DNA of 64,000 bases from Arthrobacter alpinus. Lineage in GTDB: Bacteria > Actinomycetota > Actinomycetes > Actinomycetales > Micrococcaceae. A program made the translations under genes and the position numbers. Location: assembly GCF_900105965.1 (NCBI RefSeq), contig NZ_FNTV01000001.1, forward strand, positions 124,001 through 188,000. The letters run 5' to 3'. The notes below the pieces were generated by a model. The model did not search any database, was not told where the DNA came from, and saw nothing but the letters and a program-made list of their open reading frames with translations. Below, in pieces: positions 4,909 through 17,804 of this stretch (positions within the stretch are counted from its first letter, which is position 1; each line of letters begins with the position of its first letter).

Positions 4909-5712
4909 TTAGCTTGAAACTGTCCCTGTGGCGATCATGGCGTCTGAGTTCATCTCGACGTGCGGGCCCACCGACTTGATGAACTCGCGGCGGACCCGGG
5001 CGATGGCGTCGGGGTCGCGGGGGAGCAGCGTTCGCCACCCGCTGCCCATGACCAGGTTCCATGCCATGGCGTCATCCACTGCCAAGGTGAGCGGATGCGT
5101 GGCCACCGAGACGTTTTCCAGTCCACGGGCCTTGAGCCAGATGGTCAAGGAGTCAACCGTTGCCACGCGTGACATGTTTAGGTTGGGCAGCGGAACCACA
5201 CCGGCCAGCCGGGGACGTTCCTTGACAGCTGCTTCAAGAATGCGCCCGGCGAAGGGTTCCAGCGCTCCTTCGATCCAGGTACTGGCGACAAAGCGGCCGC
5301 CGGGGCGCAGCATGGAGGTTAGGTGCTCAACGCCGGCTTCCATGTCTGCGAAGAAGAACATGCTGTAGGAACACAGCACGGCGTCGAAGGTGCGGTGTCC
5401 GCGCCACTGCGTGACATCAGCCTCCGTCAAGGTAGTGTTCAGGATGCCCCGATCGGCCAGGTTCGCCGCAGCGATGCGCAGCAGGCCGGTGGACAGATCC
5501 ACACCGTCGACAGTCCCTTCCGGGCCTACCGCCAGGGACGCCGGAATCGTGGCAGCACCGGTTCCGCAGCATGCGTCCAGTACTTTCTCGCCAGGCAGCA
5601 GCCCGGCGGCTGCAACAACGTCGCGGCCCATGGGGTCCCAGAGCTTTTCCGACCACGCCTCAAATTGCAGCGCTCCGTCAGTGAACGCCAAACCAGGATC
5701 GCGAGCGGACAT
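4909..5712 (-). CDS. Class I SAM-dependent methyltransferase
   Basis: A 267-residue protein of the class I methyltransferase fold (UbiE/Methyltransf_11/25-like). Motif I is VLDACCGTGAATI at about residues 46-58, followed by an acidic end of strand 2 (VDGVDLS) that would hold the SAM ribose, and FDAVLCSYSMFFF as motif post-I/II. The start at 5712 was chosen over a longer open frame because GGAGG lies 6 bases upstream and the earlier codons are not family-like. The methyl acceptor is unknown; there is no cofactor-biosynthesis neighbour. The gene for TrmL lies 64 bases upstream in the same direction. Confidence 0.85.
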   Translation of the reverse strand: MSARDPGLAFTDGALQFEAWSEKLWDPMGRDVVAAAGLLPGEKVLDACCGTGAATIPASLAVGPEGTVDGVDLSTGLLRIAAANLADRGILNTTLTEADVTQWRGHRTFDAVLCSYSMFFFADMEAGVEHLTSMLRPGGRFVASTWIEGALEPFAGRILEAAVKERPRLAGVVPLPNLNMSRVATVDSLTIWLKARGLENVSVATHPLTLAVDDAMAWNLVMGSGWRTLLPRDPDAIARVRREFIKSVGPHVEMNSDAMIATGTVSS

Positions 5713-5776
5713 GCATACCTCCAGTAGATGAAAAAGTTTCCGGGTGAACTCTGCGTTGGTTCGCCCCCGGAGAGTG

Positions 5777-6250
5777 TTAAGCCTGGATTTGTGCCCCGGC
5801 AAAACCGTTTTGACGCCATGCCTCGAAGACGGCGATCGAGGCCGCATTGGCCAAATTAAGGGACCGCAGGGCGGGCAGCATGGGGAGCCGGACGCGGGCT
5901 GTGACGTGGGGATCTTGTTTGACTTCGAGGGGCAGGCCGTCGGATTCGCGGCCAAACATGAGCACGTCACCGGGTTGGTAGGAGATGTCCGTGTAGTTGC
6001 TTTCACCGTCGGAGGTAAAGGCAAAGACCCGTTCGGGGGCCAGGACTGCCCAAGCGTCCTCGAGGGTTTTGTGCACGGTCACCACGGCCAGATCGTGATA
6101 GTCCAAACCGGCCCGGCGCAACTTGGCGTCGGAGAAGTCAAAGCCAAGAGGTTCCACGAGGTGGAGTTCGGCCCCGGTGATGGCGGCCAAGCGGATGGCG
6201 TTGCCGGTATTGCCGGGGATTTCAGGGGTCATAAATAGGATGCGGAACAC
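5777..6250 (-). CDS. trmL: tRNA (cytidine/uridine-2'-O-)-methyltransferase, TrmL-like SPOUT enzyme
   Basis: A 157-residue protein, the normal size of the single-domain SpoU/TrmL family. It opens with the typical strand and loop TPEIPGNTGNAIRLA (family: xPEIPxNTGNIxRxC), contains the SPOUT knot segment VLMFGRESDGLP and ends with the SLNLANAASIAVFEAWRQ helix. TrmL methylates the ribose of nucleotide 34 in tRNA-Leu isoacceptors in E. coli; here the specificity is inferred from the family. The conserved Cys commonly seen in NTGN-I-x-R-x-C is alanine here, a frequent variation. It is the first gene of a short leftward pair with the methyltransferase. Confidence 0.9.
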   Translation of the reverse strand: MFRILFMTPEIPGNTGNAIRLAAITGAELHLVEPLGFDFSDAKLRRAGLDYHDLAVVTVHKTLEDAWAVLAPERVFAFTSDGESNYTDISYQPGDVLMFGRESDGLPLEVKQDPHVTARVRLPMLPALRSLNLANAASIAVFEAWRQNGFAGAQIQA

Positions 6251-6327
6251 GTCTTTTATCCTACGCCAGCCATTAAGGCACGGTGACCGGACATGCTGGT
6301 CTGCCTTGCCCGGAACAGGGCAAGCTG

Positions 6328-7290
6328 TTAGTACATGCCGCCCAGGAGCCGGTCAAGGACATTCAGGTCAACCACGTTGGGTGAGGGGCCGGACGCCAGA
6401 AATTGCTTGGCTTCACGAACAAAACGGGCGGCGTTGGCCACGTTGACGGTGCTGGATCCGTCCGGTTCGGTTCCGCGGGCGTAGTCGATCACGGGTTCAA
6501 AGGGGTTGCCGGTGCTGCTGTGGACGCAAACCCAGGCCGTCACATTGCACTCAGGGAACAGGTCTTGCAACGCCCGGGCAGCGGGGATGAGCTGCGGGGG
6601 AGCGGCAACCCTGGTTCCGTGGACCAGGACGCTGCCGTCCCAGCGGAACGCGCCGTCGGGAACCAACATGGATCCGATGATCGCAATCCTGTAGCCGGAC
6701 ACCAGCACGTGGTCCATGTAGCCGGTGCCGTGAGGTGCTGTGAGGCCGTTGATGAGCCGGGCAGCTGGAATGCTCGGCAGAACTTGCTGCATGATCAGCT
6801 GCGCGGTCCGGGCCTCACGGGCAAGCCTGGAGGCAGCACCAAAGAGTCCGCGCTTGCGCGGTGCGCCGTGGACCGGTTGTGCCGCAGTGGGCCGGGGCAT
6901 GATCGGGGCTTCACCGGCCGCGAGGTCTTCGTAGGCGGGGAAATAGACGGCGGGATCGCCAGCTGGGCGCCGTTCTTCGGGGGCGCGACGCGTGGTGAAG
7001 GCATCAAAGTCATCCGGAGTGCCATATCCCCGAGGGGCGCTGGCAGGACCAGGTGCGCCGGCGCGACGCTCCCTGCCCACGGAACCATAAGAGCGGTCAT
7101 AGGCTTGCCTGCGCGCAGGATCGGCCAAGACCTCATAGGCTTCGGTGATTTGGCGGAAGAGTGCGGGGTCCCCACCCCTGTCGGGGTGCGTGATCCTCGC
7201 GGCCTTGCGGTACGCGATTTTCACCTCGCGTTCGGAGGCTGTGCGGGCAAGTCCCAGGACTTGGTAATGAGTGAGGTGTTTCTCGCCCAC
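6328..7290 (-). CDS. J-domain protein with an unassigned C-terminal domain
   Basis: A 320-residue protein. Residues 5-68 form a DnaJ domain with the diagnostic HPD in THPDRGGD (about residues 34-41), so it can stimulate an Hsp70. There is no Gly/Phe region, zinc-finger or DnaJ C-terminal domain, so it is not DnaJ itself. After a low-complexity linker (about 70-145) comes a folded domain of about 170 residues with patterns such as YMDHVLVSGYRIAIIGS, FRWDGSVLVHG, and AWVCVHSSTG. The mixed strands and spacing resemble NERD-type nuclease folds, but I cannot confirm catalytic residues. It probably targets DnaK to a particular substrate. It is divergent from the lipid-kinase gene. Confidence 0.75.
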   Translation of the reverse strand: MGEKHLTHYQVLGLARTASEREVKIAYRKAARITHPDRGGDPALFRQITEAYEVLADPARRQAYDRSYGSVGRERRAGAPGPASAPRGYGTPDDFDAFTTRRAPEERRPAGDPAVYFPAYEDLAAGEAPIMPRPTAAQPVHGAPRKRGLFGAASRLAREARTAQLIMQQVLPSIPAARLINGLTAPHGTGYMDHVLVSGYRIAIIGSMLVPDGAFRWDGSVLVHGTRVAAPPQLIPAARALQDLFPECNVTAWVCVHSSTGNPFEPVIDYARGTEPDGSSTVNVANAARFVREAKQFLASGPSPNVVDLNVLDRLLGGMY

Positions 7291-7408
7291 AAGGGACCTT
7301 TCGCTAGCCAGGCTGTGCAGGAATTCATTCTAGCGGCCGCAACTGACTGTTTTATCTGAGCGGAAATCCCCCAGCGAAGGCGCCCGCGCTGTCATACTTT
7401 CACTTGCC

Positions 7409-8362
7409 ATGAACACGATCCCGCGCACTTCCATCGAACCCGCAGCAGGCACAGCACTGTCCATTGCCGTGGCCATCAATCCGCGTGCGGCCTTTGGCGG
7501 AAAAGGTGCCTCCTCGCCCACGCGGACCGGGGATATGGTGGTGGCGCGCCTGCGTGAAGCCGGACATCACATCAGCGAGCTGCGCCGCGGCGATTACCTC
7601 GCCCTAAAACGAGCGGTCGACGCCGAGATCGCCGCAGGTGCCCAGGCCCTGGTCGTTGTGGGTGGGGACGGCATGGTCCACCTCGGGGTCAACGCCGTGG
7701 CCCACAAGAACGTCCCCCTGGGCATCATCCCGGCAGGCACCGGCAACGACGCCGCCCGCGGACTGGGCCTTGAGCTGAACAACCCGGGCGCCGCCGTCGA
7801 GCATTTCCTAAGGTGCTGCCACGGCGGGCCCCGCATCCTGGATCTAGGCCGGATTGATCGAGCAGGACAGGAGCCGGTTTGGTTCATGGGCGCGCTCTCG
7901 GCCGGCTTCGATGCCCTGGTCAACGAGCGCGCCAACACGTGGCGTTGGCCGCGCGGACCCATGCGCTACAACCTGGCGATCCTGCGCGAACTGGCCGTTT
8001 TGAGGCCGCTGAACTATTCGCTGGTGGTGGATGGCCAGGCCGGCAAGCAGCAGGCCGTACTGATTTCCATCTCCAACGGCACCTCCATAGGTGGTGGCAT
8101 GTTGATCACCCCGAAGGCCAAATACGACGACGGCCTGCTGGATATGTTTGTTGTCTCCCCCGTGTCGCGGACCAGGTTCCTGCGAATTTACCCGCTGGTC
8201 TTCTCCGGACGGCACGCCGGCCGCCCGGAGGTCAGGATTAGGCAGGTGTCTGAGGTCATCATTGACGCGCCCGGACTCATTGCGTACGCGGACGGCGAGC
8301 GAATCGGGCCACTACCGGCGACCGTCGCGGCGGATCCAGGTGCGGCACTGCTGTGGGGTTAG
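7409..8362 (+). CDS. Diacylglycerol/lipid kinase family protein
   Basis: A 317-residue protein with the DAGK catalytic fold (YegS/DgkB/BmrU group). The nucleotide-binding motif GGDGMVHLGVN lies at about residues 88-98 and is followed by LGIIPAGTGNDAARGLG, the second diagnostic motif. The C-terminal half has the beta-sandwich with NGTSIGGGMLITPKAKYDDGLLD. Family members phosphorylate diacylglycerol, sphingoid bases or other lipids at the membrane face. The start has no strong Shine-Dalgarno; MNTIPRTS is chosen as the only reasonable ATG before the fold. It is divergent from the J-domain gene. Confidence 0.88.
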   Translation: MNTIPRTSIEPAAGTALSIAVAINPRAAFGGKGASSPTRTGDMVVARLREAGHHISELRRGDYLALKRAVDAEIAAGAQALVVVGGDGMVHLGVNAVAHKNVPLGIIPAGTGNDAARGLGLELNNPGAAVEHFLRCCHGGPRILDLGRIDRAGQEPVWFMGALSAGFDALVNERANTWRWPRGPMRYNLAILRELAVLRPLNYSLVVDGQAGKQQAVLISISNGTSIGGGMLITPKAKYDDGLLDMFVVSPVSRTRFLRIYPLVFSGRHAGRPEVRIRQVSEVIIDAPGLIAYADGERIGPLPATVAADPGAALLWG

Positions 8363-8412
8363 TGTTGCGCTGCTGTGGCAGGATGCTCGCGCGGATCGGT
8401 AGAGTGGATCGT

Positions 8413-9144
8413 GTGAATCAACACAGGGGGTCCAAGGGGCCGGCAGCCGTCGTGGCGCTGACCGTTTCATTGGCCATCTCTTTGACTGGTTCCCTGACGG
8501 GCTGCAGTATTTCCGTTCCTTCTCCCACCGCGCCAACGGCCGAGAATTCTGCCCCAGCGACCACCTACGCGCCGCCCACTGTTGTGGCCGGCCATGACGC
8601 CGCCAAGGTGGCCGCCGCACCCATGACCTTTGAAGCAGGGAACACCTTGTCCGCTGGCGTGGCCGTCGGGTTTAGCGATGTCCTGGGCCAACCATCGCAG
8701 GATTATTCAACAACGCCGGCACCCGCGGAGTGGACGCTGGTCAAAGACAAGGTGGCCGGCCAGACGCAGTACAAGAATGCTGCGGGCTGCCAGGTTGCCT
8801 ATTGGACCACCGTCAATCAGGGACCGCTCATCACGGCCGGAGATGACAAGGCCTCCACCGTGAAGTTGATGAAGTATCTGATTCCCTCAGTGATCGCCGA
8901 GTCTCTGGGTGAAGCCAAGTTGCCGTGGGTGGCGGAGGCAGGAAAACCGGGGCCCGGCATCACCTTCCTTGGGTTCTCCACAAAGGCTGGCAAGGATGTC
9001 ATGGCCAGCACCGTGTGGGGGCGCATGCTCGGAACGGCCAATACCTCTTTGCTGGTGAGCTTGGCGTGCCCCACCGATGAATTGCTTGCCGCAACGACGC
9101 CGGCGGTCATGGCGAAATTGTCGGTCGCACCGCCGTCGAGCTAG
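8413..9144 (+). CDS. Putative secreted lipoprotein of unknown function
   Basis: A 243-residue protein with a lipoprotein signal peptide: basic start (NQHRGSKG), a hydrophobic run and the lipobox LTGC with Cys31. A Thr/Pro/Ala-rich tether (about 35-60) leads to a mature domain of about 180 residues that I do not recognise. GTG 8413 was chosen because it gives a normal signal-peptide length and GAGTGG lies just upstream; GTG 8404 or ATG 8353 would also be in frame. The mature part has two cysteines (about residues 125 and 218) that could form a disulfide outside the cell. Its 3' end overlaps the tail of the convergent reductase gene by 4 bases. Confidence 0.75.
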   Translation: MNQHRGSKGPAAVVALTVSLAISLTGSLTGCSISVPSPTAPTAENSAPATTYAPPTVVAGHDAAKVAAAPMTFEAGNTLSAGVAVGFSDVLGQPSQDYSTTPAPAEWTLVKDKVAGQTQYKNAAGCQVAYWTTVNQGPLITAGDDKASTVKLMKYLIPSVIAESLGEAKLPWVAEAGKPGPGITFLGFSTKAGKDVMASTVWGRMLGTANTSLLVSLACPTDELLAATTPAVMAKLSVAPPSS

Positions 9145-9914
9145 CCGACAGGGCGCACGTAGCGCAGGAACAGCATGGACTCGGCTTTGAGGATTCTCGT
9201 CAGTTCCATGGTGCTGGTGGCAGCTGAGGTTTCGGGGCCGTGGGCGATTCTGCCAGCCCGGCCGCTGACGAGGAGCGGTGAGACAGTGAGATTTAGTTCG
9301 TCGACTTTTCCGGCGGCCGCAAAGGTGCCCAGCAAAGTGGGGCCGCCCTCGGAATGGATGCGCTGATAGTTCCGTGCGGCCAGGACTGAAATGACCAGCT
9401 CCGGGTCCAGCACGTCAGTGCCGACCGTGATGATTTCGGCGACCTCGGCGAGCGCCGCAACGTGATCCGGTTCGGAAGCGGTGAGTGCCGACTCCAGGGT
9501 CAGGATCAGTGGCCGGACGGGGGCCTGGGTAAACACCTCGAGCGCCGGGTCAAGATTGAGCGAGCCCGAGACGATAGCTACGGGTGGATGTGCGGCCAAC
9601 CAGTTCTCAAGGCGCCATTGCTGTGCCGCCGCACTCAGGAGTTCTCCGCCGTAGCCTTCGGCCCTGATCGTTGCAGCGCCCACAAGGATGACGTCGGCGC
9701 TTTGGCGAAGCAGGGAGAACACGCGCAGGTCCCACGCGTTGCCCAACTTTCCCGATAGTCCGTCCAAGGTGGCCGCACCGTCAAGGCTGGAGATGAAGTC
9801 AAAGCTCACCCAGGGACGCCCGGCCATGCGGTGTTCAGAGGGGGGTGCCAGTAGTTCCTGGTCCAGGTCGGCACCGGACAACAGGGCGGGGCGGGGGAAA
9901 AGTCTCTCGATCAT
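9141..9914 (-). CDS. RibD C-terminal-domain reductase, Rv2671-like (possible alternative dihydrofolate reductase)
   Basis: A 257-residue single-domain protein of the RibD_C/DHFR fold. It begins after a short N-terminal segment with FDFISSLDGAATLDG (about residues 39-53), then LLRQSADVILVGAATIRAEGYGG, which binds NADPH, and IHSEGGPTLLGTFAAAGKVDELNLTVSP near the C terminus, quoted here in two family-standard blocks. There is no deaminase domain, so it is not a bifunctional RibD. The pattern matches, from memory, M. tuberculosis Rv2671, reported as a functional dihydrofolate reductase analogue. It is the last gene of the leftward folE cluster, 10 bases after the FolP2-like gene, which favours a pterin or folate substrate over riboflavin. 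Confidence 0.85.
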   Translation of the reverse strand: MIERLFPRPALLSGADLDQELLAPPSEHRMAGRPWVSFDFISSLDGAATLDGLSGKLGNAWDLRVFSLLRQSADVILVGAATIRAEGYGGELLSAAAQQWRLENWLAAHPPVAIVSGSLNLDPALEVFTQAPVRPLILTLESALTASEPDHVAALAEVAEIITVGTDVLDPELVISVLAARNYQRIHSEGGPTLLGTFAAAGKVDELNLTVSPLLVSGRAGRIAHGPETSAATSTMELTRILKAESMLFLRYVRPVG

Positions 9915-9924
9915 GGTGTGGTCC

Positions 9925-10890
9925 TTAACCGTTGCTGCGGTTCGGGTGGGCGGGCTCGTTAAGATCTCCCATGTTGTGTTTGAGATAGGCCGGTTCCCGC
10001 CAGCCCAGGGTTGTCTCGGTCATGCGAATGGCAGAGTTGGCCGAGGCGATATTGTGCATGCGCAGGATCCGGGCACCGCCCAGAATGCAGATCACCCCGG
10101 TGGCCAGCGAACCTTCAAGCCGCTCATGCTTGGCTTGGTTGAGGGATTCGCCAATGAAGTCCTTGTTGGACACAGCCGCCAGGGCGGGGAAGCCCAGGCC
10201 GGCAATCTCGTTGAAGCGACGGGTGATCTCCAAGGTGTGCAGGGTGTTCTTGTTGAGGTCATGGCCAGGATCGATGATGATCTTCTCGGCTGGCACACCC
10301 AGGGAGATGGCGAGGTTCACCTTCTCGGCCAGGAACGCGGCAACCTCGGTGACAACGTCGTCGTAGTGCGGCCGTGGGTAGACCGTTCGGGGCTTGGCCA
10401 GCGAGTGGGTGATGACCAGATGCGCGCCATGCTCCGCCACCACGGAGGCGATCTCCGGATTTGCCAATCCTGTGGTGTCGTTGATTACGTGGGCGCCTGC
10501 TGCGATGCTGCGGGCCGCAACCTCTGGGAGGAACGTGTCCACCGAGATGATCACATCGCTGGCGGCCGCCACGGCAGCGATGACCGGCACCACCCGGTCA
10601 CTTTCCTCGTCAGCGCTCAGCGCGGGCCCGGGCGCAAACGGCACCCCGCCAATATCAACCCAATCGGCACCGTCCTTCACGGCCGCAAGCGAAGCCGAGA
10701 CCGCAGCATCAAGGGCAAAGGTGGCTCCGCCGTCATAGAAGGAATCCGGTGTGCGGTTAATAATGGCCATGAGCGCCACCTGACGGCTGAAGTCGATGGT
10801 GCGTGGCCCAAACTGGTGGACCGGGTGAATCAGTGGCGGCGCATAGAACGGGGAAGTAACTGCGGGGGAAGTCCTCATACCCACCATCAA
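9925..10890 (-). CDS. Dihydropteroate synthase paralogue, FolP2-like
   Basis: A 321-residue TIM-barrel protein of the DHPS family. The pterin loop reads AIINRTPDSFYDG (residues 42-54; canonical enzymes have NVTPDSF), DIGG (79-82) is present but followed by VPFAPG where ESTRPG is usual, ISVDT (115-119) and INDTTG (136-141) are kept, SRK is replaced by SNK (241-243), and the final MRxHD reads LRMHN (276-280). These changes match, as I recall, mycobacterial FolP2, which was reported not to have DHPS activity. It may therefore bind a pterin without the standard condensation. Its ATG overlaps the upstream oxidoreductase stop by 4 bases; the reductase follows after 10 bases. Confidence 0.85.
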   Translation of the reverse strand: MMVGMRTSPAVTSPFYAPPLIHPVHQFGPRTIDFSRQVALMAIINRTPDSFYDGGATFALDAAVSASLAAVKDGADWVDIGGVPFAPGPALSADEESDRVVPVIAAVAAASDVIISVDTFLPEVAARSIAAGAHVINDTTGLANPEIASVVAEHGAHLVITHSLAKPRTVYPRPHYDDVVTEVAAFLAEKVNLAISLGVPAEKIIIDPGHDLNKNTLHTLEITRRFNEIAGLGFPALAAVSNKDFIGESLNQAKHERLEGSLATGVICILGGARILRMHNIASANSAIRMTETTLGWREPAYLKHNMGDLNEPAHPNRSNG

Positions 10891-12143
10891 ATAGCCTCGA
10901 GAGGGGTTTGCGGGTCAGCCAGCTTATGCGTGTCGATGATTCGCTGGGAGGAGATCAGCTCCTTGATGGCGTCCTGGACATCCCAGATATTTACATTCAT
11001 GCCCGCTACCAGACGGCCATCCAGCAGCCAGAATGCGATGAATTCACGCTTTTCGAGGCTGCCACGAATAACCAGCTGGGCATCCTTGGTCAAGGCGCCG
11101 AAACCGGAATATTCCATGCCCAGATCAAACTGGTCGGTGTAAAAATACGGGATGTCATCGAGGACGGCATCCTGACCCAGCATTGACCGCGCAGCAACCT
11201 TACCGCCGGCAATCGCGTTGGCCCAGTGCTCCGAACGCGCCAAGGCGCCGGTGATCGGATGCATCGCATTGGCCACGTCGCCAGCGGCAAACACATCCGG
11301 CTCGGACGTTTGCAGCCCCGCCGTGACCTCGATGCCATTGTTGATCGTAAGCCCAGCCCCTTGAGCCAGGGCGATATTGGGCACCACGCCCACGGCCACA
11401 ATGACAATATCGGCCGGCAGGCTCACACCTGTGGTCGTGAGTACGTGCGTCACAGCGCCGTTGCCGCCCTGGATTTCCGCGGCGCTCGCCGGGAGGAGAA
11501 ACGTCACGCCCGCCTCCTTGTGCCGGTCCATGAAAACTGTGCCCAGCGTGGTTCCAATCGCGGCGGACAAGGGCACATCTTCCAGACCCAGCAAGGTCAC
11601 GTGGTTACCCAATTCGGTGGCCGTGGCAGCGATTTCCATGCCAATCCAGCCCGAGCCAATCATGACAACGTGGTGGCCACCACCGGCAAGCTTCAATTTC
11701 AACGCCACGCTGTCGGCCTTGGTGCGGAAAGTGCAGACACCGTCAAGGTCGACGCCGGACAGCGGAATTCGGCGCGGCGCAGCACCTGTGGCGATGAGTG
11801 CCTTGGCATACGGGAGGGTGGTCCCGTTGTCGAGGGTGACGGTGTGCCCCGTCGGATCCAGGGCTGTTGCGGCCACGCCCGTCAAGAGCGTGACGTTATT
11901 CTCGTCGTACCAGTGGGCAAGGAGGGGCAGAAGAGCCTCGTCATCCTCCTTGCCTGCCAGAAATCCCTTGGACAGCGGCGGGCGCTGGTATGGAACCTCA
12001 GCTTCCGCCGCGACGATCGTGACGGCTCCGCCATACCCTTGCTTTCGCAGGGCTTCGGCCGCGGTGGCGGCAGTGAGCCCGCCACCAATAATGACCATGC
12101 CAGCGGCTGGGGAAGTGGCGGGAGTGTTGAGTGAGGCATTCAT
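10887..12143 (-). CDS. FAD-dependent oxidoreductase, ferredoxin-reductase type
   Basis: A 418-residue flavoprotein of the BphA4/rhodocoxin-reductase family. The N-terminal FAD-binding GGG motif is at residues 20-22 (VIIGGGLTAATAAEALR), followed by RPPLSKGFLAG, which is diagnostic of this family. A second dinucleotide fold for NAD(P)H lies at about 150-185 (MIGSGWIGMEIAATATELG), then FAAGDVANAMHP (FAD ribityl contact) and the C-terminal SEHWANAI and PYFYTDQFD segments. It would pass electrons from NAD(P)H to a ferredoxin or another acceptor; no ferredoxin gene lies in the cluster. It sits between folE (98 bases upstream) and the FolP2-like gene (4-base overlap), suggesting a redox role in the same pathway. 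Confidence 0.92.
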   Translation of the reverse strand: MNASLNTPATSPAAGMVIIGGGLTAATAAEALRKQGYGGAVTIVAAEAEVPYQRPPLSKGFLAGKEDDEALLPLLAHWYDENNVTLLTGVAATALDPTGHTVTLDNGTTLPYAKALIATGAAPRRIPLSGVDLDGVCTFRTKADSVALKLKLAGGGHHVVMIGSGWIGMEIAATATELGNHVTLLGLEDVPLSAAIGTTLGTVFMDRHKEAGVTFLLPASAAEIQGGNGAVTHVLTTTGVSLPADIVIVAVGVVPNIALAQGAGLTINNGIEVTAGLQTSEPDVFAAGDVANAMHPITGALARSEHWANAIAGGKVAARSMLGQDAVLDDIPYFYTDQFDLGMEYSGFGALTKDAQLVIRGSLEKREFIAFWLLDGRLVAGMNVNIWDVQDAIKELISSQRIIDTHKLADPQTPLEAI

Positions 12144-12241
12144 GATCGAAACTCTTTCCGGTGGAAAATTGTGTCTCTGTTTATGAACTTGTGGCTGGAC
12201 TGGCCGGCCGTCTCCGCAGGCTGTGCCCTGGCGCAGACGTG

Positions 12242-12844
12242 TCAGTGCGGGAACTGCTCACGCAAGGGGCCGGCGTCAGACAGCAGACCGGTAAAGACCG
12301 AGGTGCGGGTCAATGTCCCGGCCGTCTGAACGCCTCGCAGCGACATGCACATGTGCTCGGCCTCCATGACGACACCAACGCCGCGTGGGGACAGGGTGTC
12401 CTCGAGCCAGTTCGCGAGTTGCTGCGTAAGCCGTTCCTGAACCTGCAGATCGCGGGCGAACAATTCCACGCCGCGGGCCAGCTTGGACAGGCCAAAGAGT
12501 CGCTCGCCGGGCAAATAGCCCACATGGGCCACGCCACGGAACGGCAGCAGGTGGTGCTGGCAGAGGGAATTGAAAGGGATGTCCTTGACCAACACCAGGC
12601 CCTGATAACCGTCGTCGTTGGGGAAAGTGGTCCACGACGTCTCACGCGGGGTGAGCATCTGGGCATAGGCGGCTGCCACGCGTCGGGGAGTGTCACGCAA
12701 ATGCGGATCGTTGTCATCGCGGCCCAGCGCTCGAAGCAGCTCAGCGACGGCTGCCTGCGCGCGGGGGAGATCAATCGGGGAATCCCCGGTTAGCGGATCC
12801 TCGAAGTCGAGCAGCTCCGGCGGTGGTGCACTGGAGATAGACAT
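12242..12844 (-). CDS. folE: GTP cyclohydrolase I
   Basis: A 200-residue FolE, close to the usual bacterial length. Zinc ligands Cys95 and His98 (SLCQHH) and Cys166 (AEHMCMSLRG) correspond to E. coli Cys110, His113 and Cys181, and LTRTSVFTG is the conserved C-terminal block. It opens GTP to 7,8-dihydroneopterin triphosphate, the first step of folate and other pterins. It leads a leftward cluster with a flavoprotein, a FolP2-like protein and an Rv2671-like reductase, but without folB or folK, so this is probably not the housekeeping folate operon. AAAGGTG lies upstream of the ATG, and the promoter is straddled by a perfect inverted repeat, so it is probably repressed by the divergent regulator. 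Confidence 0.96.
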   Translation of the reverse strand: MSISSAPPPELLDFEDPLTGDSPIDLPRAQAAVAELLRALGRDDNDPHLRDTPRRVAAAYAQMLTPRETSWTTFPNDDGYQGLVLVKDIPFNSLCQHHLLPFRGVAHVGYLPGERLFGLSKLARGVELFARDLQVQERLTQQLANWLEDTLSPRGVGVVMEAEHMCMSLRGVQTAGTLTRTSVFTGLLSDAGPLREQFPH

Positions 12845-12854
12845 GGTCGCACCT

Positions 12855-12883
12855 TTCTAAAGCTTGTATTATTGACTTTAGAA
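12855..12883. promoter_or_regulatory. Perfect inverted repeat, candidate operator of the folE cluster
   Basis: TTCTAAAG (12855-12862) and CTTTAGAA (12876-12883) are perfect reverse complements separated by 13 bases, so their centres lie 21 bp, two helical turns, apart. The arms flank the predicted folE -10 box. The likely binder is the regulator encoded divergently at 13035. Confidence 0.7.
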
Positions 12884-12895
12884 GCGCAGACTCAA
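12866..12895 (-). promoter_or_regulatory. Predicted folE promoter
   Basis: On the minus strand TTGAGT (12895-12890) and TAATAC (12871-12866) are separated by 18 bases and resemble sigma-70 -35 and -10 boxes. The -10 box falls between the two arms of the inverted repeat, so a bound repressor would exclude RNA polymerase. Confidence 0.55.
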
Positions 12896-13034
12896 AGCGT
12901 CAAGCACGGACGAAACAATTCTCCGCATGAAGCGCCGATGCAGAGAGGACTAGGTCAACAGCCATGAAACAGCCATCCCCCAGCCGCCGAACGGGCCTGG
13001 CGCAAGGCTCGACGACGGCCAGTGCCTGAGTGCC

Positions 13035-13667
13035 GTGGCGTCCCTGGGTGATCCGGTGCGTAAGCGATTGTTTGAGTTGGTGCGTCTCTCGGACCATGCA
13101 CTGAGCCGAGATGACTGCGCCCAAGAGCTTGACCTGCCCAAGAGCACGGTCCGAGTCCACCTTGACCGCTTGGTGCACGAACAGCTTTTGCTGGTGGAGT
13201 TTCGCAAGGTCGGGGAGCGAACAGGCCCCGGCTCCGGCCGTCCCACCAAGTTGTATACCGCCGCGCGCCATGAGGTCGGTGCCTCCGTGCCGCCGAGACA
13301 CTACGACCTGGTCGCGCAATTGCTTGCGGCTGCCGTTCACCGCTCAATTGACGGACCGGTGGGCATTGAGCAAGCCTTGGCGGAGGTGGCCCGTGATGAA
13401 GGCAGGCGTCTGGGGGAGCAGTCCGGGAGCATTCACGAGCTCCTAGTCAGTACCGGCTACGATCCCCAACCTGATGGTGAGGGCGGCACCGTCATGGCCA
13501 ACTGCCCCTTCCACAGGCTCTCGCTGGAGCATGCGGGTGTGGTGTGTTCACTCAACGGGGCGCTGCTTCGTGGCGCCCTTGACGGATGTGGCGATTCACG
13601 CCATGACCTCGCACCGGATCCCGAAGTTTCCCACTGCTGTGCCCGGCTGATTCAAAAGGAACTTTAA
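13035..13667 (+). CDS. Winged-helix regulator with SufR-like C-terminal cysteines
   Basis: A 210-residue protein. Residues 1-75 form a winged helix of the ArsR/COG2345 type (LSRDDCAQELDLPKSTVRVH is the recognition region). The C-terminal third carries Cys157 (NCPFHRL), Cys171, Cys185 and Cys201-Cys202, spaced 13, 13 and 15 residues apart, close to the C-x12-C-x13-C-x14-C iron-sulfur ligands known for SufR. It is therefore probably an Fe-S-sensing repressor. Start is uncertain: GTG 13035 is the only standard start codon in frame, but the frame is open back to about 12950 and would code for a plausible N-terminal extension. It is divergent from the folE cluster, whose promoter carries an inverted repeat. 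Confidence 0.82.
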   Translation: MASLGDPVRKRLFELVRLSDHALSRDDCAQELDLPKSTVRVHLDRLVHEQLLLVEFRKVGERTGPGSGRPTKLYTAARHEVGASVPPRHYDLVAQLLAAAVHRSIDGPVGIEQALAEVARDEGRRLGEQSGSIHELLVSTGYDPQPDGEGGTVMANCPFHRLSLEHAGVVCSLNGALLRGALDGCGDSRHDLAPDPEVSHCCARLIQKEL

Positions 13668-13671
13668 GCAG

Positions 13672-13705
13672 TTCCGGCGGCCACCGTGAGAGGTGACCGC
13701 CGGAA
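13672..13705. terminator. Hairpin between convergent regulator and subtilase genes
   Basis: TTCCGGCGG-x-CAC and GTG-x-CCGCCGGAA form a 12-bp stem with one mismatch around an 8-base loop. There is no T-run, but the position between two convergent stop codons fits a bidirectional terminator. Confidence 0.65.
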
Positions 13706-13723
13706 ATAGTGGGAACTGAAGAC

Positions 13724-15223
13724 TTAGAGGACTGCCTGCAAGGCGTCCACAATGCCCTCACCGTAGTAGCTGTTGTTACGCACGGAACCGGTGCATTCGG
13801 AGCCGGTGGGTGTCGCCGAAGGCATGCACACGTGATCCTCGGATTGCTTGCGCAGCTCGGAGATCAACTGATTGGGCTTCCACCCTGGGTGTGCGGACTT
13901 CATCAGGGCCAGCACGCCGGCAACCTGTGGTGAAGCCATTGAGGTGCCGCTGAGCAGACCGTAGGTGTTGTTCGGCAGCGTGGACAGGATGCGGGATCCG
14001 GGCGCCGCTACGTCAATCACGTTCAGGCCGCGGTTGGAGAAGGAGGAGAGCTTTCCGGCTTGATCCGTGGAAGCCACGGTCACCACGCCTTCCATCTCGG
14101 TGGGAATGTCCTTGCAACCATTGTTGATCTGGCGCTCAATACCGGCCACGTCGTTCGGGCTGACGTTATCGGTGGTCTTGTTAGCCAGGTCGTAAGAGGC
14201 ATTTCCGGCAGCGGCCGCGTGAACAACGCCCTGCTTTGTTGACCACTTCACGGCACGCTCAACGGCGTCGAGGACTGCCTTCTGATCGGGCTGATCGCCG
14301 CACCAGAACTGCATGGGGTCAATGTAGTAGCTGTTGTTGGTGACATCCATGCCCTTCATGCCCGCCCACATGAAGCCGCAGATGGCGTATTCCGGATAGA
14401 TCGAACCGGCGTCGTTGACCACCTTCACCGAAGCCATCCGCGCGTTGGGTGCCACGCCGACAATGCCAACACCGTTGCGGGCCGCGCCGATGATCCCGGC
14501 GACATGGGTTCCATGGGATGACGTGGTGGGGAACCAGCCTGTGGGCGAGGTGTCCGGCCGTCCGGCATCGGTGCAGTTGACCGAGTTGGCAACGTCAATA
14601 TTGGCCGCAAGGTCCGGGTGGTTCGGATCGATGCCGCTGTCCAAAACGCCAACCAGGACATCGGGTGAACCGTCTGTGATTTGGTGCGCCTGGTCTGACT
14701 TGATCTGAACCTGGCTCCACTGCTCGCCTTCGCGCGGATCTGCTGCAGCGCCGTCGAACGTGGCGTCTCCGTAGAGCAGATCGGTGTTGGCAAGTTGCTT
14801 GCTGCGCAGGGCCGGGGCCTTCTGCCACGGGGTGGCAATGCCGTCGGGGGTACCCTCGGCCACGGTGATGGTGCGGGTTGCGCCCACCGACTCCACGGCT
14901 GATTTTCCGAACTTCAGGACGTCCTTGCGGAAGTTGGCTCGATCCGATTGAACAATGACCACACCGATCTCGGGCCATTGCTGGACCGCGACGCCGCCGG
15001 CTGCCTCAACGGCCTTCACCGCGTCCTTGGTCTTGTTGGCGTTGGCGGCCTTTGCGTTGACCACGTAGCTCATAAGTTGGCCGTCTGCTGCGGGAAATTC
15101 AACGGGTGTGGACTGGTTGGCCGGCGGCGCGGCCATGGCGCTGCCGCCGATCAATGTGGTTGCAGCCAGGGCCACTGCGCACAGGGCAGCAGCCGTGGTG
15201 CGGCGGAAAAATGCTTTGTGCAT
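13724..15223 (-). CDS. Secreted subtilisin-family (S8) serine protease
   Basis: A 499-residue subtilase. Residues 1-31 are a Sec signal peptide (FRRTT start, hydrophobic core, AMAA cleavage region), followed by a propeptide of roughly 120 residues. The catalytic triad is visible: Asp195 in VGVLDSGIDPNHPDL, His237 in SHGTHVAG and Ser428 in SGTSMASP; Asn341 (AAGN) is the oxyanion-hole residue. Four to six cysteines in the mature domain (around 217, 282, 308, 370 and near the C terminus) suggest disulfides and extracellular action. A general scavenging role is likely; no inhibitor or dedicated exporter lies beside it. It is divergent from the cysteine desulfurase gene. Confidence 0.95.
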   Translation of the reverse strand: MHKAFFRRTTAAALCAVALAATTLIGGSAMAAPPANQSTPVEFPAADGQLMSYVVNAKAANANKTKDAVKAVEAAGGVAVQQWPEIGVVIVQSDRANFRKDVLKFGKSAVESVGATRTITVAEGTPDGIATPWQKAPALRSKQLANTDLLYGDATFDGAAADPREGEQWSQVQIKSDQAHQITDGSPDVLVGVLDSGIDPNHPDLAANIDVANSVNCTDAGRPDTSPTGWFPTTSSHGTHVAGIIGAARNGVGIVGVAPNARMASVKVVNDAGSIYPEYAICGFMWAGMKGMDVTNNSYYIDPMQFWCGDQPDQKAVLDAVERAVKWSTKQGVVHAAAAGNASYDLANKTTDNVSPNDVAGIERQINNGCKDIPTEMEGVVTVASTDQAGKLSSFSNRGLNVIDVAAPGSRILSTLPNNTYGLLSGTSMASPQVAGVLALMKSAHPGWKPNQLISELRKQSEDHVCMPSATPTGSECTGSVRNNSYYGEGIVDALQAVL

Positions 15224-15318
15224 GGGTTAATCCCCCCGGGATCATTGTGTGATGTGGGACACCCCGATCCTGCCATTGAGGGCAGATGTTGACAAGCTCG
15301 ATGCCGTAGAATTGAGCT

Positions 15319-16539
15319 GTGCCCGTGTATCTAGATCACGCGGCGACCACGCCTATTTCGGCCCCGGCCCTCGCCGCACTCACCTCCGTTATTGCCCATA
15401 GCGGCAATCCGTCGTCCCTGCATGGTGCCGGCCGCCGTGCCCGTGCCACGGTGGAAGCTTCGCGCGAGACGTTGGCGCAGGCCGCTGGCGCCCACCCCAC
15501 CGAGGTCATATTCACCTCCGGCGGAACCGAGGCGGACAACCTTGCCGTCAAGGGCCTTTTTTGGTCCCGCAATGCCGCCGATCCTGCACGTACCCGTATC
15601 TTGGTCTCCAGTGTGGAGCATGCGGCGGTGCAGGACACCGTCGAATGGCTGGATAAGCACGAGGGCGCCGAGGCGATCTGGCTGCCCGTCGACGCCGCCG
15701 GAATCCTTGACCTGGCCGCACTGGAAAATGAATTGGCCGACGGCGGAGCCGACTCGGTCGCACTTCTCACCTGCATGTGGGCCAACAACGAAGTCGGAAC
15801 TGTCCAGCCCATCGCCGAGATCGTGACCCTTGCGAGCCGTTATGGCATCCCCGTCCACTCCGACGCCGTCCAGGCCTTCGGCTCCATCCCAGTGAACTTC
15901 AAGGAATCCGGTCTGGCTGCGATGTCCATCAGCGGGCACAAGATCGGCGGACCTGTTGGCGTTGGGGCGCTGCTACTGGGCCGCGCCGTGAAGCTAACGC
16001 CGGTGCAGCACGGAGGCGGGCAGGAACGCTCTGTTCGCTCCGGCACCTTGGACACCGCCGGCATTGCAGCCTTCGCAGCAGCCGCCCAAGACGTCACCAG
16101 CAACCTTGCCTCGGAGCATGCCAGAATTTCCGGGCTCCGTGACGCCATCATCGCCGCAGTTCGCGAATTGGTTCCCGAAGCCGTCCTCCGCGGCGTCGAC
16201 CCGGCCGGCAACCCGGACGGTCGTCTTCCTGGCAACGCCCATTTCACCTTCCCCGGCTGCGAGGGAGATTCCCTCCTGTTCTTGCTGGACATGGCTGGCA
16301 TTGAATCCTCCACAGGTTCCGCTTGCACCGCCGGAGTGCCCCGCCCTTCCCACGTCCTCTTGGCCATGGGACTGGACGAAGACACGGCACGTGGCGCACA
16401 ACGCTTTAGTTTGGGGCATACATCCAGCGAGAAAGACGTTGAAGCCTTTGTGGCCGCGTTGCCGCAAGCACACGCGCGCGCAAAAGCAGCTGGCATGGCC
16501 GGGCATCAATCGTCCATCCAAACCGCGAGCACACAGTAG
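15319..16539 (+). CDS. iscS: Cysteine desulfurase, IscS/NifS family
   Basis: A 406-residue PLP enzyme. It opens with YLDHAATTP, the family hallmark; His101 (SVEHAAV) stacks on PLP, Lys208 in SISGHKIGG forms the Schiff base and Cys336 in [10 protein letters not shown] carries the persulfide. The active-site loop is the short group-I (IscS) type. The start is GTG at 15319. It is followed after 125 bases by mnmA, as in Mycobacterium, so its main job here is probably sulfur supply to tRNA 2-thiolation; no iscU or fdx lies nearby and Fe-S assembly is probably done by a suf operon elsewhere. Confidence 0.94.
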
Positions 16540-16547
16540 TTTCGGTC

Positions 16548-16584
16548 CGGGGGTGCCAGAGCCTCCGCCTGACAGGGACCCCCG
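16548..16584 (+). promoter_or_regulatory. Weak hairpin between iscS and mnmA
   Basis: CGGGGGT (16548-16554) and ACCCCCG (16578-16584) can pair across a 23-base loop. A T-run (TTTTTTT) occurs some 50 bases later, just before the mnmA Shine-Dalgarno. It could tune read-through from iscS to mnmA, but the distance argues against a simple terminator. Confidence 0.3.
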
Positions 16585-16664
16585 CTTCGCGGACGCCCGA
16601 AGCCGCTGCCGTTGCGGTTGGCAACGCACGACTTGATTTTTTTGTTTCAACTGAAAGGTACGTA

Positions 16665-17804
16665 ATGCGAGTATTGGCCGCAATGAGTGGTGGAGTTGAC
16701 TCTGCCGTCGCCGCAGCCCGCGCGGTGGATGCCGGGCACGACGTCGTCGGCGTTCACCTGGCGCTCTCCCGCATGCCCGGAACCCTGCGCACCGGCAGCC
16801 GTGGCTGTTGCACCGTGGAGGATTCCAATGACGCGTGGCGAGCCTGCGATCTGCTTGGCATTCCGTACTACGTGTGGGACTTCTCCGAACGGTTCAAGGA
16901 GGATGTGGTCCAGGACTTCATCGACGAATACGCCGCGGGACGCACACCCAATCCGTGCATGCGCTGCAATGAGCGGATCAAGTTTGCGGCCCTGCTGGAG
17001 AAGGCCATCGCCCTGGGCTTCGACGCCGTCTGCACGGGCCACTATGCCAAGGTCATCACCGACACCGACGGCAACCCGGAGCTGCACCGCGCCGCTGACT
17101 GGGCCAAGGACCAGAGCTACGTGTTGGGTGTGTTGACCCATGAGCAGCTCAAGCACTCCATGTTCCCGCTGGCCGACACGCCGTCCAAGGCTGAGGTTCG
17201 CGCCGAGGCGGAAGCCCGCGGCCTGTCGGTGGCCAAGAAGCCCGACAGCCACGACATCTGCTTCATTCCCGACGGTGACACGGCGGGTTGGTTGGCCGAG
17301 AAGATTGAGATGACCGACGGCGAGATCGTCGACGAAAGCGGCGCACGCGTTGGCGGGCATACGGGCTCCAACCAGTTCACGGTGGGCCAGCGCCGCGGCC
17401 TGAAGCTCGGCACCCCGGCAGCCGACGGCAAGCCACGCTTTGTGTTGGAGATTCGCCCCAAGGAAAACAAGGTCATCGTCGGCCCGCACGCACTGTTGGC
17501 CATCGACGAGATCAAGGGCATCAAGGTCTCTTGGGCCGGGTTGCCCATCGCCGAGGTCGCCACCGGTGCCGAGTTCGACTGCTACGCCCAGGTCCGTGCG
17601 CACGGCGACCCCGTCCCGGCACGCGCATATGTCACGGAGGCAACGGACGACGGTGTTTCCCGCCAGCTCCTCAATGTCACCTTGGTGGAGCCGCTGCGCG
17701 GCGTGGCGCCCGGACAGACCATCGTCTTGTACCAGGGATCCCGCGTACTCGGGCAGGCAACGATCGACACGGCACGTTCCCTGGCACGCCCCGAACTCCC
17801 GTAA
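16665..17804 (+). CDS. mnmA: tRNA-specific 2-thiouridylase
   Basis: A 379-residue MnmA. The PP-loop SGGVDSAV is at residues 8-15. Catalytic cysteines are Cys101 in NPCMRCN and Cys199 in HDICFIPDG, matching E. coli Cys102 and Cys199; the motif GHYAKV and the C-terminal beta-barrel ([15 protein letters not shown]-like end) complete the fold. It activates U34 of tRNA-Glu, -Gln and -Lys with ATP and inserts sulfur delivered from the desulfurase encoded just upstream. AAAGGT lies 5-6 bases before the ATG. A 15-bp terminator follows the stop codon immediately. Confidence 0.97.

Follow-up and report, generated by a model that had tools for sequence, protein, structure and literature searches.

The window analysed here, a stretch of 64,000 nucleotides from the soil actinobacterium Arthrobacter alpinus, contains a cluster of four genes, folE, FdR, folP2 and ribDC, that appears to be an accessory pterin operon with a regulator of its own, REG, encoded divergently. 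The components of the cluster are as follows:

12242..12844, minus strand: accessory FolE, GTP cyclohydrolase I, the first gene of the operon (PF01227, GTP_cyclohydroI, 195 bits)
10887..12143, minus strand: FdR, a ferredoxin-reductase-type NAD(P)H flavoprotein (PF07992, Pyr_redox_2, and PF14759, Reductase_C)
9925..10890, minus strand: FolP2-type paralogue of dihydropteroate synthase (DHPS) (PF00809, Pterin_bind/DHPS, 214 bits)
9141..9914, minus strand: RibDC, an Rv2671-like reductase with the RibD C-terminal domain, the last gene of the operon (PF01872, 87 bits)
13035..13667, plus strand: REG, the divergent regulator, with an ArsR-type winged helix and a cysteine-bearing C-terminal domain
12855..12883, no strand: candidate operator TTCTAAAGCTTGTATTATTGACTTTAGAA, an inverted repeat with arms exact in 18/39 REG loci
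12903-12875, minus strand: sigma-70-like folE promoter TTGACG-N17-TAAAGT, with the -10 box within an operator arm

All five open reading frames were confirmed, four on the minus strand and the regulator on the plus strand, as were the 10-base gap and the 4-base overlap reported in a first-pass annotation of the sequence. From folE onward, the genes are spaced by a 98-base gap, a 4-base overlap (10887-10890) and a 10-base gap (9915-9924), and a simple scan for terminator-like sites between the genes, on the strand that they share, found none. In profile searches, the FolE, FdR, FolP2 and RibDC proteins all passed the Pfam cut-offs; the PDB sequences nearest to FdR are 3lxd and those of the putidaredoxin reductase and BphA4 types. 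Because the gene arrangement recurs in other genomes, as detailed below, it is not a product of chance.

The folE-FdR-folP2-ribDC set is accessory, given that the genome (4.62 Mb, 2 contigs) encodes another FolE and another Pterin_bind protein in a complete folate operon and also has a dihydrofolate reductase (DHFR) besides the module. The housekeeping operon, ftsH-folE-folP-folB-folK (L062), lies at approximately C1:3571094-3575673, and matches to the FolB, HPPK and FtsH domains were found there. The existence of this operon rules out the window set as the sole folate pathway and agrees with the initial suspicion that a cluster without folB or folK is unlikely to be the housekeeping one; indeed, neither gene is present among the seven neighbouring genes scanned (4909-17804). 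RibDC as the sole DHFR was likewise rejected, since DHFR is encoded in all 80 genomes of our family sample, the family being Micrococcaceae as judged from its nearest named proteins. In this sample, FolE is found in 78 genomes and is present in two copies in 7, and, judging by coordinates, a REG homologue lies no more than about 1.3 kb from the start of each of the 7 extra folE genes, which supports the anticipated co-occurrence in relatives.

The two kinds of FolE are separated in the phylogeny (n = 55; midpoint root, with several long branches, including L093 and L125, possibly misplaced): 21 housekeeping FolE fall on one side of a branch with support of 99/91, and 21 REG-linked FolE, together with L100 and three plasmid sequences, lie across a branch supported at 100/99. 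C95, H98, H164 and C166 are kept in 21/21 REG-linked and 21/21 housekeeping sequences, and H97 in 20/21 of the REG-linked ones. Taking the conserved Cys, His and Cys to be metal ligands and the remaining positions to belong to the catalytic motifs, the window FolE carries the residues expected of a GTP cyclohydrolase I, and it passes two NCBIfam subfamily cut-offs. Other contexts of folE were also noticed: on a Rhizobium tropici plasmid (L178, 5941-8104), an accessory folE directly precedes a cryptochrome/photolyase gene, and on a Streptomyces californicus plasmid (L176, 6956-14425), it is located in a nonribosomal peptide synthetase/polyketide synthase cluster with a gene for 6-carboxytetrahydropterin synthase.

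The window FolP2 is most similar among PDB sequences to 2vp8, 'dihydropteroate synthase 2' (E 1e-56). We compared 88 FolP2 sequences with at least 50% identity to the window protein to 21 canonical DHPS, using pterin-site roles and E. coli numbering that we presume to apply. N45, N137, D207, K243, R277 and H279 are invariant in 88/88 FolP2, and D118 is present in 84 (E in the other 4). By contrast, in every one of the 88 sequences, F stands in place of the loop-2 threonine, D in place of G189, L in place of F190 and N in place of R220, with F85, D211, L212 and N242 found in 88/88; the loop-2 serine has given way to P, K or A, and the loop-2 arginine to A, S, G or K. This residue pattern, which extends the altered catalytic residues of the first-pass annotation to the entire set, suggests that pterin binding was likely kept, whereas the handling of p-aminobenzoate (pABA) and pyrophosphate was changed. 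With its pterin residues kept and S-T-R, F190 and R220 replaced, the window protein is of the FolP2 (Rv1207-like) type. It scores above the cut-off of the NCBIfam DHPS model TIGR01496 (248.4 vs 162.6 bits), a model that is silent on catalysis, and fails the Sul models (Sul4, 153.8 bits vs 600; Sul3, Sul1 and Sul2 lower). A 2007 comparative study leaves the role of FolP2 open, suggests that M. leprae folP2 works in a different pathway and says the same of the second folP of high-GC Gram-positive bacteria, which reportedly clusters with cell-wall genes (PMC1971073). In the portions of the open-access literature available to us, we found no reaction assigned to FolP2.

For RibDC, the best PDB relative is 4xrb (Rv2671; E 7.6e-42), and the protein is Rv2671-like in that it consists of the RibD_C domain alone and is closest to Rv2671; its matches to the NCBIfam PRK14059 models are below the cut-offs (best 182.8 vs 226 bits). 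To our knowledge, the natural substrate of Rv2671-like reductases is unsettled. Genes for RibDC and FolP2 are tightly linked. In the family sample, the pair is present in 41 of 80 genomes: of 47 second-type Pterin_bind hits, picked by score with 6 long MetH-like hits left out, 41 have RibDC encoded no more than 1.6 kb away. The six hits that lack RibDC nearby are in G003, G005, G011, G042, G065 and G066; conversely, 8 of the 50 RibDC hits lack a second-type Pterin_bind neighbour. In one of these genomes, an extra Pterin_bind gene and a second DHFR gene lie near each other, possibly as an antifolate-related pair (G065:C18:1169-2924), and similar extra Pterin_bind genes are present in G003, G005 and G011.

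We also examined the best 80 (L063-L142) of at least 580 confirmed FolP2 matches. In 65 of these best-matching loci, ribDC lies directly downstream of folP2 on the same strand. In 14 it does not, all from Streptosporangiaceae, Thermomonosporaceae and Micromonosporaceae, that is, outside Micrococcales, with L092 and L102 having a RibDC match nearby although not directly downstream; the 15th locus without RibDC, L133, is cut by a contig end. Surroundings of the pair vary widely: 36/80 loci show the pair by itself in the stretch searched, with neither folE nor FdR nor REG (for 5 of these, less than 5 kb of contig remains upstream, and L099, counted here, has REG, DoxX and FdR pieces farther upstream), 10/80 contain the full folE-FdR-folP2-ribDC set with divergent REG, 9/80 carry another FolE, 8/80 FdR only, and one locus each has the set without FdR (L088) or without divergent REG (L100). 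Thus, the conserved core is folP2-ribDC, to which folE, FdR and REG are an add-on, and, given the 36 pair-only loci and the 14 without ribDC directly downstream, the four genes are no obligate set. The first-pass proposal of a four-gene unit stands insofar as the unit recurs, but it is a composite of the folP2-ribDC core and the REG-folE-FdR add-on rather than a single unit. On the FolP2 tree, the REG-module label requires 10 changes, 8 of them forced by starred branches, which indicates that the add-on was gained or lost many times; the label includes the remnant loci L040, L042, L061, L099 and L100, and some of the loci labelled bare end close upstream.

In Curtobacterium and Frigoribacterium, folP2-ribDC is preceded by a different FolE, one that comes from the housekeeping side of the tree and forms a branch of 9 sequences, including one from a Glaciihabitans metagenome-assembled genome, with support of 100/100. 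In 5/5 of the genomes checked, out of eight such loci and with genome completeness unstated, no FolE match besides this one was obtained, and folE is missing from the other folate operon, which reads ftsH-folP-folB-folK; the Glaciihabitans assembly, a sixth record, also has one FolE, and the full canonical operon was not recovered from it. Being the sole FolE in these genomes, the enzyme must serve both folate synthesis and folP2-ribDC. Hence, FolE appears to have joined folP2-ribDC at least twice, from different stock. Taken together with the conserved adjacency of folP2 and ribDC in Micrococcales, the separate joining of FolE suggests that FolP2 and RibDC act on the same pterin pool.

The HTH_20 match of REG is just under the Pfam cut-off (24.9 vs 27 bits). 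The C-terminal part was modelled alone because the fold search with the whole model covered mainly the winged helix, and the predicted structure resembles, with low to middling strength, a V4R/H-NOX/TRAPP-type fold. This domain contains C157, C171, C185, C201 and C202, four of which are invariant among homologues. The first-pass annotation described the cysteines as SufR-like, but by the NCBIfam model REG does not belong to SufR: it scores 12.3 bits against TIGR02702 (cut-off 178.8), which matches 3/25 sequences at E<=1 (best E 0.0038); the cysteine spacing, C-X13-C-X13-C-X15-CC, differs from the C-X12-C-X13-C-X14-C of SufR; and the third 'SufR-like' cysteine is present in 16/22 aligned sequences. 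Binding of an iron-sulfur (Fe-S) cluster by REG is nonetheless possible. REG relatives extend about 10 or more residues upstream of the GTG start used in the window, where the reading frame continues without interruption as far back as a TAG at 12951 and contains no ATG, GTG or TTG, so that the start is either shortened or unusual; an ATG at 12964 lies in a different frame.

The inverted repeat TTCTAAA-N15/16-TTTAGAA is located between REG and the first divergent gene. The arms are exact in 18/39 REG loci and have at most 2 mismatches in 26/39, and for these 26 loci, none of 100 Markov-shuffled copies each scored as well. Exact copies occur at folE-type and DoxX-type loci alike. In 15/39 REG loci, the repeat is combined with a promoter, TTGAC-N17/18-TAAAnT, such that the -10 box lies in an operator arm: before folE in the window, L035-L038, L040 and L063-L065, before FdR in L042, and before DoxX in L045, L046, L048, L051 and L058; ten other DoxX loci lack this layout. 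The layout fits repression, with the repeat as candidate operator. A genome-wide search restricted to N15 spacing yielded one exact copy. A wider REG regulon in this genome was considered and rejected: with up to 2 mismatches at N15, there are two sites, one exact and one with 2 mismatches, and the latter is noise, given that a reversed control pattern gives 6.

Genes divergent from REG were surveyed in 27 loci (L035-L061, E 2.6e-26 or better) out of 50 REG matches, that is, leaving aside the window's own match and 22 weaker ones. In 24 of the 27, the divergent side encodes DoxX, folE, FdR, folP2 or ribDC: 15 loci have DoxX alone, 5 folE-FdR-folP2-ribDC (with a folE fragment in L040), 2 DoxX-folE-FdR, 1 FdR-folP2-ribDC and 1 folP2-ribDC. 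DoxX here denotes a DoxX-like membrane protein, and the name rests on a below-cut-off Pfam match (21.3 vs 23.6 bits) and on plasmid annotation. The full table of REG neighbours covers 49 loci, in which the two L099 entries count once, L040 is scored as having FolE despite a piece of 46 residues, and the REG match of L100 is a piece at a contig end. The alternative that FolE-FdR and DoxX are swapped at one site was ruled out by their co-occurrence, as DoxX-folE-FdR, in L053. Further arrangements divergent from REG include DoxX-folE-FdR on the Nocardioides plasmid pNOCA01, folE-FdR in Nonomuraea, DoxX-folE-folP2-ribDC in Homoserinimonas and DoxX-folE on Rhodococcus plasmids, where the opposite strand encodes an FdR relative (42-43%) at a distance of about 3 kb; the plasmid loci were found through REG or FolE and so are not an unbiased sample. 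Three Rhodococcus plasmid islands contain spare genes for aconitase, cytochrome oxidase subunit I (ctaD), ferredoxin (fdxA) and transaldolase, and some also for glutamate synthase, SdhB (the Fe-S subunit of succinate dehydrogenase), truncated haemoglobin, catalase or carbonic anhydrase. From this gene content, we infer that the signal may be redox or Fe-S/heme stress. The island (L149, L151, L152) is conserved over the 36 kb read, with three REG-like regulators each in L149 and L151 and two in L152. Decaying versions of the module were also observed, namely L040 (8217-8354, the 46-residue folE piece), L061 (truncated REG and FdR) and L099 (3955-6478, FdR in pieces). Next to the window operon, positions 8353-9144 encode a 263-residue protein without a Pfam or NCBIfam match, relatives of which are found near some other REG loci, and just past REG there is a subtilase (13724-15223) with a below-cut-off mycosin-like match.

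The reading towards which we lean, by a modest measure, is that of a locally repressed accessory pterin operon, the product of which is most likely a reduced non-folate pterin; the operon-like accessory pterin/folate set with a divergent regulator of its own, as first proposed, is supported by the data above. Given the conserved repeat and its position, REG would bind TTCTAAA-N15-TTTAGAA, covering the -10 box of the folE promoter, and thereby shut off folE-FdR-folP2-ribDC, until a signal altering its C-terminal domain, such as loss of a metal or Fe-S cluster, thiol oxidation, nitric oxide (NO) or another ligand, releases it. The accessory FolE, presumably active given its conserved residues, would then raise the level of dihydroneopterin triphosphate, from which the housekeeping FolB and FolK would supply hydroxymethyl-dihydropterin pyrophosphate. 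FolP2 would bind this compound and, as its residues suggest, use an acceptor or a chemistry other than pABA coupling. RibDC, as a DHFR-like NADPH reductase, would make the tetrahydro form, FdR would keep the product reduced or feed electrons, and the resulting pterin would serve under redox or Fe-S/heme stress.

Several observations weigh against this reading. The gap between folE and FdR measures 98 bases, and the window FolE falls just below the cut-off of the NCBIfam folE equivalog TIGR00063 (173.4 vs 181.6 bits). In 13/39 REG loci, 8 of them from Microbacteriaceae and including full-module loci, the repeat is mismatched at 3 or more positions, and in L043, L057 and L060, REG has no partner gene on its divergent side. 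The pair-only folP2-ribDC loci and those without ribDC directly downstream count on the same side. No match to an aromatic amino acid hydroxylase (PF00351), a possible user of tetrahydropterin, was found in the genome. Finally, the increased sulfamethoxazole sensitivity that follows folP2 deletion in mycobacteria could also mean an ordinary folate role.

The latter point also speaks for a rival explanation that we regard as fairly unlikely, namely, reinforcement of ordinary folate synthesis or an antifolate bypass, in which FolE would increase flux, FolP2 would act as a DHPS that is poorly inhibited and RibDC as an extra DHFR, so that the operon would restore folate after its oxidation or in the presence of drugs or natural antifolates. 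Loss of FolP2 makes M. tuberculosis H37Ra more sensitive to sulfamethoxazole, with the same effect cited there for M. smegmatis (PMC7809127), and Rv2671, the closest PDB sequence to RibDC, is described as a DHFR in another report (PMC12855090); the score of FolP2 above the NCBIfam DHPS cut-off points the same way. However, M. leprae folP2 fails to complement an E. coli folP mutant, according to the comparative study (PMC1971073), the genome already has a canonical DHPS and DHFR, and FolP2 does not conform to the Sul models. A modified pterin looks likelier than an antifolate bypass because the pABA/pyrophosphate residues (loop-2 S-T-R, F190 and R220) are changed in 88/88 FolP2 and DHFR is present in 80/80 genomes. 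Of the options for an accessory route in the first-pass annotation, we therefore favour a modified pterin over antifolate bypass through ordinary folate.

Less probable still, and to our minds distinctly unlikely, is target replacement under a poison of Fe-S clusters or heme (NO, cyanide or sulfide), whereby FolE, FdR and, elsewhere, DoxX would be spare or protective copies and the pterin chemistry would not be new. The Rhodococcus islands, with REG, DoxX, folE and an FdR relative among duplicate metabolic and stress genes, would fit this scenario, as would the weakly V4R/H-NOX-like C-terminal domain of REG with its four invariant cysteines. Yet the genes scanned around the operon include no duplicates of this kind, its other neighbours being a lipid kinase, a NifS-type cysteine desulfurase, MnmA, a DnaJ-domain protein and a methyltransferase-like protein; the N15 operator is exact once in the genome; a cyanide link was not found in the open-access literature; and the folP2-ribDC pair and the folE arrangement of Curtobacterium are left unexplained. 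It is also conceivable, although very improbable, that REG-folE-FdR and folP2-ribDC have no joint function and are separate units placed side by side by chance. Indeed, each occurs alone, as in the 36/80 FolP2 loci with ribDC only and in the DoxX-folE-FdR sets without folP2. Chance, however, hardly accounts for the recurrent gain or loss of the REG module across the FolP2 tree (10 changes, 8 forced), the shared strand and order, or the joining of another FolE in Curtobacterium and Frigoribacterium.

Returning to a repressed accessory pterin operon, its closest known counterparts are stress- or light-inducible folE operons, of which, by analogy, the window operon may be considered a variant that has FolP2, a RibD-type reductase and another kind of regulator. 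In Pseudomonas mendocina, the light-induced folM-folE-folX operon, from a class II LitR region, similarly unites FolE with a pterin reductase under regulation; LitR is the regulator there, alongside the FolX epimerase and FolM, a dihydromonapterin reductase (PMC9758184). The window operon differs in having an ArsR-type regulator, no FolX, a RibD-C reductase replacing FolM, and FolP2 and FdR in addition. In Rhodobacter, folE2, another GTP cyclohydrolase gene induced by oxidative damage, is induced in the singlet-oxygen response, but its control is by a sigma factor (RpoE), and the available text mentions no FolP2 or RibDC partner (PMC7074977). Mycobacterial FolP2 (Rv1207), represented by 2vp8, shares the changed loop 2 and is the closest solved DHPS-like sequence, whereas in one related record, a Tsukamurella plasmid, the gene adjoins that for glucosyl-3-phosphoglycerate synthase rather than ribDC or folE. 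Rv2671 is the closest solved sequence to the window RibDC, but no folP2 neighbour is mentioned in the accessible part of the report (PMC12855090). With SufR, REG shares an ArsR-like helix-turn-helix and C-terminal cysteines, but it fails the SufR model, its cysteine spacing differs and its divergent gene is folE. No description of this gene combination was found in our searches of open-access papers.

In a bolder form, which we put forward as speculation that is rather unlikely to hold in full, FolP2 and the Rv2671-like proteins would be the core of an undescribed pterin pathway of Actinomycetota, in which FolP2 joins hydroxymethyl-dihydropterin to a non-pABA acceptor, RibDC reduces the adduct to a new tetrahydropterin cofactor and the supply is switched by a redox- or ligand-sensing ArsR/V4R-like repressor. 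More directly, action on a shared pterin pool would turn two orphan genes, both tied to the mycobacterial antifolate response, into one assayable two-enzyme reaction, and the local operator and regulator would give a handle for inducing the operon. More generally, many related bacteria share this second, probably switchable, folate-like gene set, the product of which may be a different pterin, and the little understood FolP2 and Rv2671-like genes, which are present also in mycobacteria, would gain a shared, testable role.

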